A stretch of DNA of 64,000 nt, from the NCBI GenBank assembly GCA_030744755.1, contig JASLPY010000010.1:43918-107917 (forward strand), given 5' to 3'. The notes under the pieces are model-generated. The model saw only the letters and a program-made list of their open reading frames with translations, was not told the origin of the DNA and did not search any database. This DNA is from Kiritimatiellia bacterium. GTDB lineage: Bacteria > Verrucomicrobiota > Kiritimatiellia > UBA8416 > JADHWI01. Numbering within the stretch: position 1 is the stretch's first letter; each line of letters begins with the position of its first letter. The position numbers and the translations under genes are program-made. Of the stretch, positions 3,824 to 56,613 are shown in pieces.

Positions 3824-4069
3824 CATTTCGCCACAAGCGGCGAAATGACTGAAAACCCTAATGACGAAATACCCAGATACCCAAAGAAATCCGAAGTACC
3901 CAAGCCCGAATGACCCCATTTTGTGAGTCTGCTGGAGCGGACGAATTGTTGAGACCTAACCAATCAGCTTTGGGCCGCCAGTTTCGGAGTTCAGAGTTCG
4001 GAATTCTTTGGGTATTTGGGTACTTGGGTGCTTCGTCATTCCCGCTATTTCACGAGTCTTCGTGAAATA
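3824..4069. terminator. Two hairpins between convergent genes (candidate bidirectional terminators)
   Basis: catttcgcc(3824-3832)/ggcgaaatg(3839-3847) and tatttcacga(4046-4055)/tcgtgaaata(4060-4069) between + strand stop 3817 and - strand stop 4080. Confidence 0.5.
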
Positions 4070-5879: not shown

Positions 5880-6021
5880 AGCCGTGCAGTGTATCCCAGA
5901 ACATGTTTTGCCCGCAATCCTTAAGGGGGGGGCGGTCAGATCTCATGCCACTTACTTAAGCCTCTTTTCCCTACTTTGTCGCGAGCTTTGTCGATCCAAA
6001 CCCTTTGTAACGTTACGTCAG

Positions 6022-6249
6022 GCCGGAGGCCTGCCAGCGATTAGCCGGTGGTTGCGCGCGGAACGCGCGCCACCACCGGACTTCGTGGCGAGAGCATCAC
6101 CCATCCCGGAGGGATGGCAGCGATTCCCGCTCGGCCGCGTATCCGCCAATGCTGGCATCCCTTCGGGATGCAATTCATATCTCCGTTTACCGGTGGTATC
6201 TCCCGCTCCGCTGGATCAACCACCGGCTAATCGCTGACAAGCCTCCGGC
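6022..6249. repeat. Nested palindromic element C
   Basis: Arms 6022-6053 and 6218-6249 (32 nt, 2 mismatches as inverted repeat), with internal hairpins catcccggagggatg and catcccttcgggatg. Confidence 0.85.
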
Positions 6250-6467
6250 TTGCCCCGAGGGCGAATCAGGGGGGCGAATCAGGGTCAGCGAATCAGGGCC
6301 AGACCTTTATTGTACATTTTAGTGCGCTTTGCTGCGCAGGACTGGTTCTCTTGTCACATGCCGGTCACGGAGAATCGGTTGTCGAAACCGAACCCGCAAT
6401 AGACATCAGATCAAAGAGTGTCTACAGTGAGATGTTTCCTCATCAGGCTACAGGTATATGATCGGAC

Positions 6468-31159: not shown

Positions 31160-33217
31160 TTACACTGCCACGTTGGTATGGTCCGCCACCTCGGCGGGTT
31201 CCCCGGTAGCCGACGAGTCATCGGGCAACCAGATCCTGAACAATGATCCTTCTCCTAGCCGACTATCAACAGTCAGCCTCCCGTTCAAAGACTCTATGAT
31301 CTGGTGAGAAATGTAAAGGCCAAGGCCGCTCCCTTTGCCGACGGGTTTCGTGGTAAAGAACGGATCGAATATCCTTCCGATGTCATCGGGCGAAATGCCC
31401 GTACCATCGTCCGCAACGCTCAGCTCTATTCCACCGTCTTTGTTCTCGGCTGACACCGTTACGGTGCCACCGATATCCGTAGCATCCAAAGCGTTCATCA
31501 GCAGATTGAGCAGAACCTGTTGGACCTGCAGGGGCCGGCTCCGCGTGAGAAACCACGATGAATCATCGCCCTTTCCCCTATCGTTCGTGAAGTAGTTGCG
31601 CTCGATGTGGCGTTGCCTGGCCCTGCTGCTGCCTTCTACTAGTTGAATCGTGTCGTCAAGCAGCACCGGGATATTGATAACCTCCTCACTCTCTTCACCC
31701 CTGGAAAACACCAGCAGATTCTGGATAATGTTCTTACAGCGAAACACGTTATCGCCTATCCGCTTCAGATGATTTGCGGTCGAACTCCTTTCTTCATCCG
31801 AAGACATACTGCCATCTTCTCTCTCCGCCAGGATTTCGGCCGAACTGGCAACAATGGCGAGCGGATTATTGATTTCGTGCGCTATACCGGCGGCCAATTG
31901 CCCTACCGCAGCCATTCTGCCGGTTTGCATGATCTGGATTTCCATCTCCTTAAGATGGCTGATGTCCTGAATCAGAACCAGCACCTGGTTGATTTCACCG
32001 CCCGTAGAGAGAAGCGGGGTACAGCTCGTCAGAAAGAAACGCTGAACGCCATTCAGTCGAATGGATCTTTCACGGGTCACAGGAGCATTTGCATCTCGGG
32101 CGCTGTTGATCGGACATGATTCGCATCCGGCATCTCCCTGCCACAACAGGCTGCAGCCGGTCTGGTCCAGAATGTCTGCCCCAAACCACTCTTGTGCAAT
32201 CTCATTTGCCCATACAACTTTGTTCTGCAAGTCTGTTATCAGGAGACCGGCGCCGACATTACGCACTATGTCTTCTGTCTTCGCGCGTTCCTGCGACAGG
32301 ATCTCACCGGCTTCGAGGATTTCTATCCCGCGCGTACGTAGTTTGTCCATTATTGTAGTTGTGAAGTACGCCGTGCAACAGGCTGTGGCAACGAATGCGC
32401 CGAGGAATCCCGACACGTAGGTCCATCCATGCGATCTGAGTTGCTCGCCGACTACCCCGGAGCCGTACAACAGGGGGAAAGAAGCTAACACCGCCGACTT
32501 CTCGAGGACAGCCATGCAGCAGAAAAGTGAACAGGCGATCAGTGTTACCAGGTAGGTCTCTCCCTTGTTGAGCAGGATTCCGGCAATAACAATGTGAAAC
32601 AGGTAGAAAAGGAAAAAGGGATTGTTGATGCCACCGGAAAAGTAGATCATCAGGGTAAGCGAGACCAGGTCAAGAAAGACGTGGACAAATGCCACGCGTA
32701 TTACGTTCTCCGTCTTGGGTGGATGAGTTGCGAGGAGCGCGTTGTAGCCAAGCATGGTGAAACCTATGAGGATCAGGGCAAGGGTGGAAAACGCGGAAAT
32801 GATCTGAAAGACAAACCGGCACATGATAGTCACTGCGAACACGCCGGCAATTGCGATCCACCGTAATCGAACGATCCAACTCGTCTGGCTGATGAGCTCT
32901 TCTAACTGGGTCTCTGCAACAATGGTCCTGAGCCCAGTTATCCCTGGAGGTGTGCTGGTGGGGCGCCTGTTCAGAATGTACCACGCGACGATCGCTGCAA
33001 GTGCAAAAGACGTACCGGTACCACGAACGATGTGCAAGACGTAGATCAGCGACTCGCTTGCACCCTGAAGAAAAGCTCGCTCAATGATCTCGTAAATGCC
33101 GAAGATCGCGAACCATGCGAGAAAAGCAATTGAAGATACCCGCGCCCATTTGATCACAATCCGCGCTCCAGTAGCTGGCTGACAGAATTTTCCTTTTCCG
33201 GGATGTCGGACGCACAT
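31160..33217 (-). CDS. Multi-TM sensor histidine kinase with PAS domain
   Basis: H-box GIAHEINNPLAIV; N/G boxes LLNLLMNALDATD, GSGLGLYISHQIIE; N-terminal TM segments; start codon uncertain. Confidence 0.9.
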   Translation of the reverse strand: MCVRHPGKGKFCQPATGARIVIKWARVSSIAFLAWFAIFGIYEIIERAFLQGASESLIYVLHIVRGTGTSFALAAIVAWYILNRRPTSTPPGITGLRTIVAETQLEELISQTSWIVRLRWIAIAGVFAVTIMCRFVFQIISAFSTLALILIGFTMLGYNALLATHPPKTENVIRVAFVHVFLDLVSLTLMIYFSGGINNPFFLFYLFHIVIAGILLNKGETYLVTLIACSLFCCMAVLEKSAVLASFPLLYGSGVVGEQLRSHGWTYVSGFLGAFVATACCTAYFTTTIMDKLRTRGIEILEAGEILSQERAKTEDIVRNVGAGLLITDLQNKVVWANEIAQEWFGADILDQTGCSLLWQGDAGCESCPINSARDANAPVTRERSIRLNGVQRFFLTSCTPLLSTGGEINQVLVLIQDISHLKEMEIQIMQTGRMAAVGQLAAGIAHEINNPLAIVASSAEILAEREDGSMSSDEERSSTANHLKRIGDNVFRCKNIIQNLLVFSRGEESEEVINIPVLLDDTIQLVEGSSRARQRHIERNYFTNDRGKGDDSSWFLTRSRPLQVQQVLLNLLMNALDATDIGGTVTVSAENKDGGIELSVADDGTGISPDDIGRIFDPFFTTKPVGKGSGLGLYISHQIIESLNGRLTVDSRLGEGSLFRIWLPDDSSATGEPAEVADHTNVAV

Positions 33218-33300: not shown

Positions 33301-34020
33301 GAGCATTACCGCAGTTATGTGGAGTACGGGATTATGTTGAGTGGGTTCCGTAAGTCTCTGCGGATGAGGAAATCGGGCGAAGAACTACTTAACATAACTG
33401 CTGAGGCGCTCGCCACACTTCGTTGAGGAGAGGATTGAACCACCCGCGCTCCCGCGCTAGAGGGCCCGAGGACACGGAGGTTAGATGGGAGGAGGAGACT
33501 TGGGTTCCGGGGAAGTTGCATGAATCTGGCGGAATGACCCCCTCTACCTCTCATTCCTTTTCCCAGATTCATGCAACGTTTGCCATGGGGAGGAAGAAGA
33601 GAAAGAATGTAGGCTTCTCATTACCGCCTTTGTTCTGACCTCAGTCCTCCGTCCCCACAATCCCTCTCAAGAGGCAAACGCGACATGAATTTGATGATGG
33701 TTTTGCCTTTGTTCTGGAAAATGCCTGGCGACATGAAAGTCACAACGAAACCATCGTCAAATTCATGCCGCTCCCGGAAGCAGCGTCTCCTCCTCCCATC
33801 TAACCTCCGTGTCCTCGGGCCCTCTAGCGCGGGAGCGCGGGTGGTTACGTTCTCCAATTCTAATCCCCAGATCACATGCTGCTTATTCAATTCCGGCTAC
33901 TTTGGGCCATCACCATCCGCATTTATGTTGAGTAACTCCGCGACGTCACAGCACATTCACTGGAAGAGGCCAAATCTACTCAACATAATCCCGCACTCCA
34001 CATAACAGCGGTAATGGCTC
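33301..34020. mobile_element. Roughly 720-bp nested-palindrome, apparently noncoding element with ~42-bp terminal inverted repeats (MITE-like or recombinase substrate)
   Basis: Outer TIRs 33301-33342/33978-34020; perfect 61-bp inverted repeat 33438-33498/33786-33846; hairpin arms 33515-33529/33563-33577; arms 33684-33703/33748-33767. Confidence 0.85.
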
Positions 34021-34096: not shown

Positions 34097-35356
34097 TCAC
34101 GGTTTTACTTCGATGTTCTCTAGCTGCTTAATCTGGTTCATGAGAAAGATGTCCAGAATGGGATTGCCACTGCTCGAATCTCCTTCGCCTCTCCCAATGA
34201 TTGTGGTGGGAACATTTACGTCCTTTAGAGCCTCCGCAATTCCTGTAAGAGTTTCCTTCTGCATCTCGAGTCTCAACTCAAGTGAACCGTCGGCCTCGGC
34301 AAGAGCTTTTCGTCCCTCAGCTTCACTGATGGCTGCCTGCTTCTTGCCCTCCGCCTGGGTGATTATGGCATCCTTCTCTAACTCGGCTTTCGCGAGTTCG
34401 ATTTCAGCTACCTCACGCGCCTTTTCTGCCAGCACCAATGCAACGGTCTTCTCGGATTCTGCATTGATCATCGCTACTTCATCTTCCATTTCTGCCTGGA
34501 TTGTCGCTTCGAGCTTCTTGTGTTCTTCCTGTGCTTTTGTCTCGGCCAACAGCTTCTCTTCTTCCGCCGCCGCAGTTATCGTCTCCTGCTTCAACTTCTC
34601 TGCGGTCAACATGGCTATGTTTCTTTCCTGTTCCAGCAGGCGATGTTCATCCAGCTTGGTCTGAGTCTGGTTATCGTACTCGATATGCTTCAGTGTGAAA
34701 TTGGCGATTCCGAGTCCGAATTTGCTGCTTATGCCGGGCAACCTTTCTATCTCATTATCGCCAGCGATGCGAGGGGACGTCAGGACCTCGCCATCGACGA
34801 CTTTCTTGTCGTATGCGATAAGCCCGTTTCGTAGAGCGTCAAAAATGTCTCTTATGAATTGCCCTCTGTTCTTAACACTGTCACCGCTTTCGTAGTTCGC
34901 AGCAACAAGCGTTAGAACTGTGTTGACATTGGCCTTTATCAGTCTTTTCAGGACCTCTTCAGTACGAGCAATATTGACGATTAGCCTCATTTGCTCCTCA
35001 TCAGCAGGAAGAGAATATCGAACATAGGCGTTAACGCTGCCCTGCCCATTGTCCTTGAAGGTCACAACTATGGCATCTTCTATTTTATGAAGACCCTTTT
35101 TGTGCTCCTCGAATGTTTTCACAAAACTGACAATCGAGGAGATCTGGAATTTTGTTACCCTTCCGAACGGCCCCTTCCAGTAAATGCCTGGTGATTGGAT
35201 TATCTTCAATTTACCACTTGGCCACTTCTGCAGTACGTGGTAGTAGCCAGCCACATTGTGGCCAAACAGCGTCCAGCATATCGCCGCGGCAACAATGATA
35301 CCTGCAGCGCCCTTGAACAGCTTATTGTTACTCTTGAGATCCATTTCTTTGTTCAT
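34097..35356 (-). CDS. SPFH/band-7 (flotillin/prohibitin-like) membrane protein
   Basis: N-terminal TM, SPFH-like domain, long Ala/Glu/Lys coiled coil; ATG preceded by AGGAGGG. Confidence 0.8.
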   Translation of the reverse strand: MNKEMDLKSNNKLFKGAAGIIVAAAICWTLFGHNVAGYYHVLQKWPSGKLKIIQSPGIYWKGPFGRVTKFQISSIVSFVKTFEEHKKGLHKIEDAIVVTFKDNGQGSVNAYVRYSLPADEEQMRLIVNIARTEEVLKRLIKANVNTVLTLVAANYESGDSVKNRGQFIRDIFDALRNGLIAYDKKVVDGEVLTSPRIAGDNEIERLPGISSKFGLGIANFTLKHIEYDNQTQTKLDEHRLLEQERNIAMLTAEKLKQETITAAAEEEKLLAETKAQEEHKKLEATIQAEMEDEVAMINAESEKTVALVLAEKAREVAEIELAKAELEKDAIITQAEGKKQAAISEAEGRKALAEADGSLELRLEMQKETLTGIAEALKDVNVPTTIIGRGEGDSSSGNPILDIFLMNQIKQLENIEVKP

Positions 35357-35380
35357 ATTCCCTCCTTGTTGTTCCATTTT

Positions 35381-56351: not shown

Positions 56352-56410
56352 GCGCTCCCGCGGGGTAGCACAGGGAATTGACCGGCACCGATCGATGCAT
56401 CTGGCGGCAA

Positions 56411-56583
56411 ACCCACCCCGCCCTACGGGCACCCCTCCAATGGAGGGGATCTGGGAGTTTGGCATTTATGGCTGATAGGTGACTCGTCACTGGGCAAACT
56501 TGGGCGTTGGATGTTGAGCGTTGGACGTTGGGCGTTGATCCCCGATCCCCTCCTTGGAGGGGTGCCCGTAGGGCGGGGTGGGT
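56411..56583. repeat. Palindromic element E
   Basis: acccaccccgccctacgggcacccctccaatggaggggatc (56411-56451) inverted at 56544-56583 with one indel; GTTGGAYGTTGG-like tandem units between. Confidence 0.9.
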
Positions 56584-56613
56584 TCTTTGGCGTAACCAAC
56601 TCGAAATCGCGTT

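Follow-up and report, generated by a model that had tools for sequence, protein, structure and literature searches.

The window, meaning the whole 64-kb stretch of DNA that was analysed, contains a 713-bp palindrome at positions 33304-34016. The palindrome lies between the stop of a band-7 gene (34097-35377, minus strand) on one side and the start of a sensor-kinase gene (31160-33217, minus strand) on the other. The original prediction had placed a nested palindrome of ~720 bp between these two genes, and both its coordinates and its description proved correct. The outer terminal inverted repeats (TIRs), expected at ~42 bp, measure 44 nt with 91% complementarity (33304-33347 and 33973-34016). 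The inner arms (33438-33511 and 33773-33846; 74 nt, 95%) include a perfect run of 62 bp, of which 61 bp had been recognised, and the two inner long stems correspond to hairpins at 33515-33577 (a perfect stem of 15 bp) and 33680-33771 (a stem of 24 bp, 92%). The individual features, with the names used for them below, are as follows.

33304-34016, no strand: whole palindrome or outer element; putative gene-less shell of RIT type that encloses the core, bounded by TIRs
33315-33325, plus: left box A, TTATGTGGAGT
33332-33342, plus: left box B, TTATGTTGAGT, 17 bp from A
33348-33437, no strand: left shell subterminal part, conserved in other copies
33387-33397, minus: left box C, ACTTAACATAA, inverted, 72 bp from A
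33438-33846, no strand: core, 409 bp, gene-less, putatively of GxxExxY type and MITE-like; 21 complete copies in the genome
33438-33511, plus: core arm S0, TIR subtype AACCACCCGCGC...GCTAGAGG
33515-33577, plus: hairpin S1, GTTGCATGAATCTGG stem
33578-33584, plus: left S3, GTTTGCC, inner block next to where the gene would lie
33585-33672, no strand: variable middle, position of GxxExxY in gene-bearing relatives
33673-33679, plus: right S3, GGCAAAC
33680-33771, plus: hairpin S2, strongest covariation
33773-33846, minus: core arm S0', complement of 33438-33511
33847-33972, no strand: right shell subterminal part
33923-33933, plus: right box C, TTATGTTGAGT
33978-33988, minus: right box B
33995-34005, minus: right box A

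The two nested pairs of arms are the two longest inverted repeats (no more than 1.5 kb apart) anywhere in the 64-kb window. Folding of the palindrome as single-stranded DNA gave -218.5 kcal/mol compared to -102.0 ± 7.1 kcal/mol for dinucleotide shuffles (z = -16.5), in agreement with the strong single-strand folding that had been anticipated. Examination of the open reading frames in 33304-34016 revealed no credible gene. The sole frame of at least 100 aa (33685-34005) runs through the palindrome itself, and the earlier view of a noncoding region whose frames are by-products of the palindrome was upheld.

Each end of the shell carries three copies of an 11-bp box, TTATGTKGAGT, with A at 0, B at +17 in the same direction and C inverted at +72. 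The two ends agree in this spacing, as do the other shell copies, and boxes A and B together form a 28-bp repeat. A search of 85,462 species genomes for the A-B pair, in which the gap was allowed to vary from 3 to 9, yielded 48 stretches, 42 of which have exactly the 17-bp spacing of the shell. A complete tyrosine-recombinase trio (RitA-RitB-RitC) was identified between inverted box pairs in two of them (L121 and L133), between two box-pair ends in a genome of the same class (L199), and adjoining one box-pair end in L115. The trio in L121 encodes proteins of 417, 324 and ~340-355 aa, and the TIR of this RIT is 34 bp long and contains the TTATGTGGAGT boxes of the shell. Since identical box pairs flank RitA-RitB-RitC trios in unrelated bacteria, the shell is best read, from sequence comparison, as a gene-less RIT derivative. 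The TIRs of ~28-34 bp found at ritABC elements are present, with boxes and 17-bp spacing matching L121, L133 and L199, and the adjacent, overlapping ritA, ritB and ritC genes are absent from 33304-34016. Published RITs are ~3.5 kb long with a terminal inverted repeat of 28-29 bp or 34 bp (PMC3414803, PMC10214605). The 28-bp A+B repeat resembles the published 28-29-bp repeat, whereas the shell element lacks ritABC, measures only 713 bp and carries a different element inside. No relevant publication emerged when the literature was searched for RIT elements without genes.

The third, inverted box was not confined to the window. With up to 2 mismatches allowed, it was present in 31 of the 38 box-pair ends that had enough sequence, all in unrelated contigs, and in 0 of 38 shuffled ends. 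It was located 70-73 bp (16 ends), 82-83 bp (10), 93-94 bp (4) or 103 bp (1) away, distances that step by about one turn of the DNA helix, and the +72 of the window is such a helically phased distance. A similar layout was observed in plasmid RITs with other box sequences from Bacillus (L236), Sphingobium (L231) and Rhodovastum (L232) and was not recognisable in other plasmid RITs with different boxes. No description of a third inverted box at helical steps was found in PMC3414803 or PMC10214605 (Ricker 2013 was outside the scope of this comparison). The phasing suggests how three recombinases may assemble per end. RIT mobility is described as undemonstrated in PMC3414803 and was not tested in PMC10214605; the shell offers a minimal substrate for testing this so far undemonstrated mobility. 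Additionally, one RIT-type end (L144) has ritA ~4.4 kb apart from ritB-ritC, a gap that is possibly a passenger or an insertion. No RIT trio, and no box near any integrase, was found in the genome that holds the window, which is incomplete. The integrases of that genome were considered as the source of the shell and rejected, as none has nearby boxes and none belongs to a trio.

The element was searched against its own genome assembly (6.28 Mb in 530 contigs, a fragmented and incomplete MAG), and copy counts were taken from the 143 resulting matches. Complete cores were present in 21 places, together with ~20 copies that are fragmentary or truncated at a contig end, at ~70-95% identity and in unrelated contexts. 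The original prediction had called for this search and would have been refuted by the lack of any second copy or variable occupancy; dozens of copies in unrelated places were found instead. Solo cores lie at unrelated intergenic places (L005, L006, L007, L008, L011, L014, L017, L019 and others), have no shell remnants beyond ~10 bp, and keep at their termini just a degenerate GGGRRAATTC tail. Other cores are enclosed by the outer shell with both junctions identical (L001, L002, L003, L009, L046, L013, L018), the core of L002 being inverted relative to its shell. Among complete cores, solo copies outnumber shelled copies. Shell ends occur at 15 places in the genome, and a second outer sequence also holds cores (L021, L024), with L004 representing a mosaic of both outer sequences. 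The core family was found only in this genome (G000) and in one genome of the same family (G001), which contains a solo core and in which no RIT boxes were found.

Direct traces of movement were also sought. No empty shells, empty sites or junction-spanning matches were detected in the own genome (no close strain was compared), and the proposed check for an empty version remained without a positive result there. The flanks of 15 solo cores displayed no clear excess of direct repeats at any offset of 0-15 that would indicate a target duplication.

Several further arrangements were noted among the copies. The second outer repeat (GGGTCCGAGATTGTCTTTACCCC... / ...CATTCTCATCCGCAAATGCCTG) surrounds cores in L021, L024, L036, L037, L042 and L004, with many copies at contig ends. 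Small palindromes (CCACGCCTATGGCGTGGCCAG; GAGCCTCCTTCGCACAAGGCTTCGGAGGCCAA) are inserted within the S0 arms of L009, L006, L018, L020, L032, L021, L024 and L037; the insert of L009 is present on both arms, which suggests arm-to-arm copying. In L203 (G000:C122:52655), a RIT-type end is fused directly to mid-core, a deletion relic. A 572-bp contig (L040, G000:C404) has a GxxExxY gene immediately outside the S0 end of a core and may represent a gene and cores joined in one composite.

An alignment of 22 core copies (A1; 21 from the own genome and 1 from G001) gave a consensus of closing arms S0, hairpin S1, the short S3 stem (GTTTGCC/GGCAAAC) and hairpin S2, with 97.4% of cells paired over 90 pairs. 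Double-sided changes occurred at 14 pairs in 49 cells, compared to 7.8 pairs and 15.6 cells in shuffled alignments and at most 4 pairs and 5 cells in slid controls. The shuffles did not correct for relatedness among the copies, and S2 was the best-supported stem. This covariation shows that pairing is maintained by compensatory changes, countering the other stated ground for rejection, an absence of selection on stem pairing. Its cause is not shown, since the arms could also have been kept similar by exchange between them or by gene conversion. On one strand of the S2 stem, G-U pairs outnumbered A-C pairs by 29 to 2, most of the bias arising from one conserved T-G position, and S0, S1 and S3 had no strand bias. 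The bias was set aside as proof of an RNA, being limited to S2 and mostly to one position. The T-G wobble at alignment columns 444/505 of the S2 stem is conserved in 18 of 22 copies. A search of Rfam with the element returned no family at gathering score, the three miRNA matches being far below it and attributable to chance.

Gene-bearing counterparts of the core were identified around genes for the GxxExxY protein (TIGR04256; PF13366 / PDDEXK_3; ~125 codons). In G001 (L073/L145), a GxxExxY gene is bracketed by arms AACCACCCGCGCTCCCGCGCTAGAG...CCCGAG and accompanied by an S2-like hairpin on one of its sides, and in G042 (L070/L153) the gene lies between ACCACCCGCTTCGCTAGAGG..CACRGAGG repeats. 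A complete element in G019 (L147) reads TIR ACCACAGAGGCACGGAGGCACGGAGG, hairpin, block, gene, block CCCTCTCCCTGAGACAACG, hairpin, TIR; at the place matching its CCCTCTCCCTGAGACAACG block the window core has CCCTCTCAAGAGGCAAACG. The S0 TIR subtype was found around the GxxExxY genes of L073/L145 and L153, and partly of L225 and L228, so that the core has TIRs of the type that flanks such genes. As judged from the order of these sequence parts, the core architecture is that of the element around GxxExxY (PF13366) genes: TIR, hairpin, block, gene, block, hairpin, TIR. The core carries the flanking TIR subtype, hairpin and inner block of these loci but not the gene, and looks like a stripped-down form of a GxxExxY-carrying mobile element. 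None of the own-genome copies of this exact core was found with the nuclease gene inside.

Flanking repeats accompany most of the GxxExxY genes examined, within the one phylum in which the tests were performed. A flanking inverted repeat scoring at least 32 was present at 24 of 30 GxxExxY loci from the own genome and relatives and at 1 of 22 distant-flank controls; the excess was repeated in an independent sample of the phylum (near versus far, p = 4e-8). Using 200-bp flanks and a score of at least 26, repeats were found at 44 of 53 GxxExxY genes in relatives compared to 8 of 196 other ORFs. The repeats are built of words that mostly recur every 8-10 bp, and subterminal hairpins in addition to TIRs were seen at a minority of loci only. 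A gene-less TIR-hairpin-TIR mini-element adjoins the GxxExxY gene in L222. Genes of this family were present in 167 of 291 sampled genomes of the phylum.

The invariant residues of the GxxExxY protein (G24, E27, Y30, D67, E77 and K79) form a PD-(D/E)XK active-site pattern. Its predicted structure (pLDDT 96.5) was nearest to the solved fold of the Cas4 nuclease SSO0001 (E 8e-4, TM 0.53), followed by lambda-exonuclease-type nucleases. A sequence search of the PDB gave no match. Annotation of the family goes no further than a protein of unknown role, and no description of GxxExxY or PF13366 as a mobile-element gene was found in the literature. Since inverted repeats surround most of the GxxExxY genes examined, a role as a mobile-element nuclease is a directly testable function.

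Taken together, the palindrome is probably a compound of two gene-less elements, a RIT-derived shell around a MITE-like GxxExxY core. The proposal of a non-autonomous mobile element was supported by the dozens of copies, the compensatory stem changes and the gene-bearing counterparts of both layers; what had been seen as one element is read here as two nested ones. The anatomy and origin of the palindrome are well supported, in that its anatomy, copy number, covariation and the ends common with gene-bearing elements were all observed; the mobilisation steps are inferred. The core has two arms, each running from an inverted terminal repeat through a hairpin to a conserved inner block, and between them a short variable spacer that is inferred to stand in for the ~125-codon nuclease gene. 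Cores would have spread through the genome on their own, and one copy would also have become fixed inside RIT element ends. The resulting shell-plus-core unit would then have multiplied, with RitABC-type tyrosine recombinases acting in trans as its most likely movers. These would bind the three TTATGTKGAGT boxes of each shell end. The agents of movement are inferred, RitABC for the shell and the GxxExxY nuclease or a partner for the core, as is recognition of the DNA in its hairpin form.

The shell is a gene-less, nested variant of a known RIT kind, and of the two the GxxExxY element would be the greater novelty. It is possible, although somewhat less likely than not, that GxxExxY genes drive a very widespread class of mobile elements that has so far gone unrecognised and that also moves gene-less hairpin derivatives like the core. 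Such an element would consist of a small Cas4/RecB-like PD-(D/E)XK nuclease between inverted terminal repeats of 8-10-bp words (e.g. ACCAC-AGAGG-CACGGAGG), sometimes with subterminal hairpins. The protein is, however, small for a transposase and has not been demonstrated to mobilise anything. A nuclease by itself does not account for insertion, which by inference would call for host repair or a partner.

Part of the evidence can be read differently. The core could be a passenger without mobility of its own, spread only in RIT shells and the second outer sequence, with the solo copies as leftovers of decayed shells. Its occurrence in two different outer sequences and the degenerate tail at solo termini are compatible with this, yet the excess of solo over shelled cores, their lack of longer shell remnants and the solo core of G001, where RIT boxes were not found, make it unlikely. 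A domesticated intergenic repeat of the REP/BIME kind, or a structured RNA, with stems retained because the fold serves the host, for instance by stabilising transcripts or regulating the adjacent kinase gene, would account for the many intergenic copies, the covarying stems and the one-strand G-U excess in S2. REP/BIME palindromes and RAYT elements are likewise intergenic and present in many copies, whereas this element is much longer and has a fixed architecture. The narrow basis of the strand bias, the absence of an Rfam family, the differing contexts of the copies and the presence of the same arms around a nuclease gene in relatives leave little room for this explanation.

A conventional DDE-transposase MITE or fold-back transposon, with no relationship to either RIT or GxxExxY, would match in size, TIRs, copy number and absence of an ORF. 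It is highly improbable given solo cores without target duplication, shell ends that equal RIT ends in sequence and spacing, and core arms that match GxxExxY flanks. The core does meet the description of a MITE in the broader sense, being short, gene-less, present in many copies and bounded by TIRs common to a gene-bearing element. It differs in having internal hairpins, in the lack of an observed target duplication, and in a partner gene that encodes a putative PD-(D/E)XK nuclease and no known transposase.

Additional inverted repeats were observed elsewhere in the window. One, at 56410-56584 (AACCCACCCCGCCCTACGGGCACCCCTCC..., 38 nt, 92%), is ORF-less and contains internal TTGGRCGTTGGATG heptamers resembling the variable middle of some cores. 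DUF559 (PF04480) was considered as its partner and rejected, as the own genome has no DUF559. Two more short inverted-repeat units, with arms of 29-36 nt, are located at 6019-6252 and 3867-4025.
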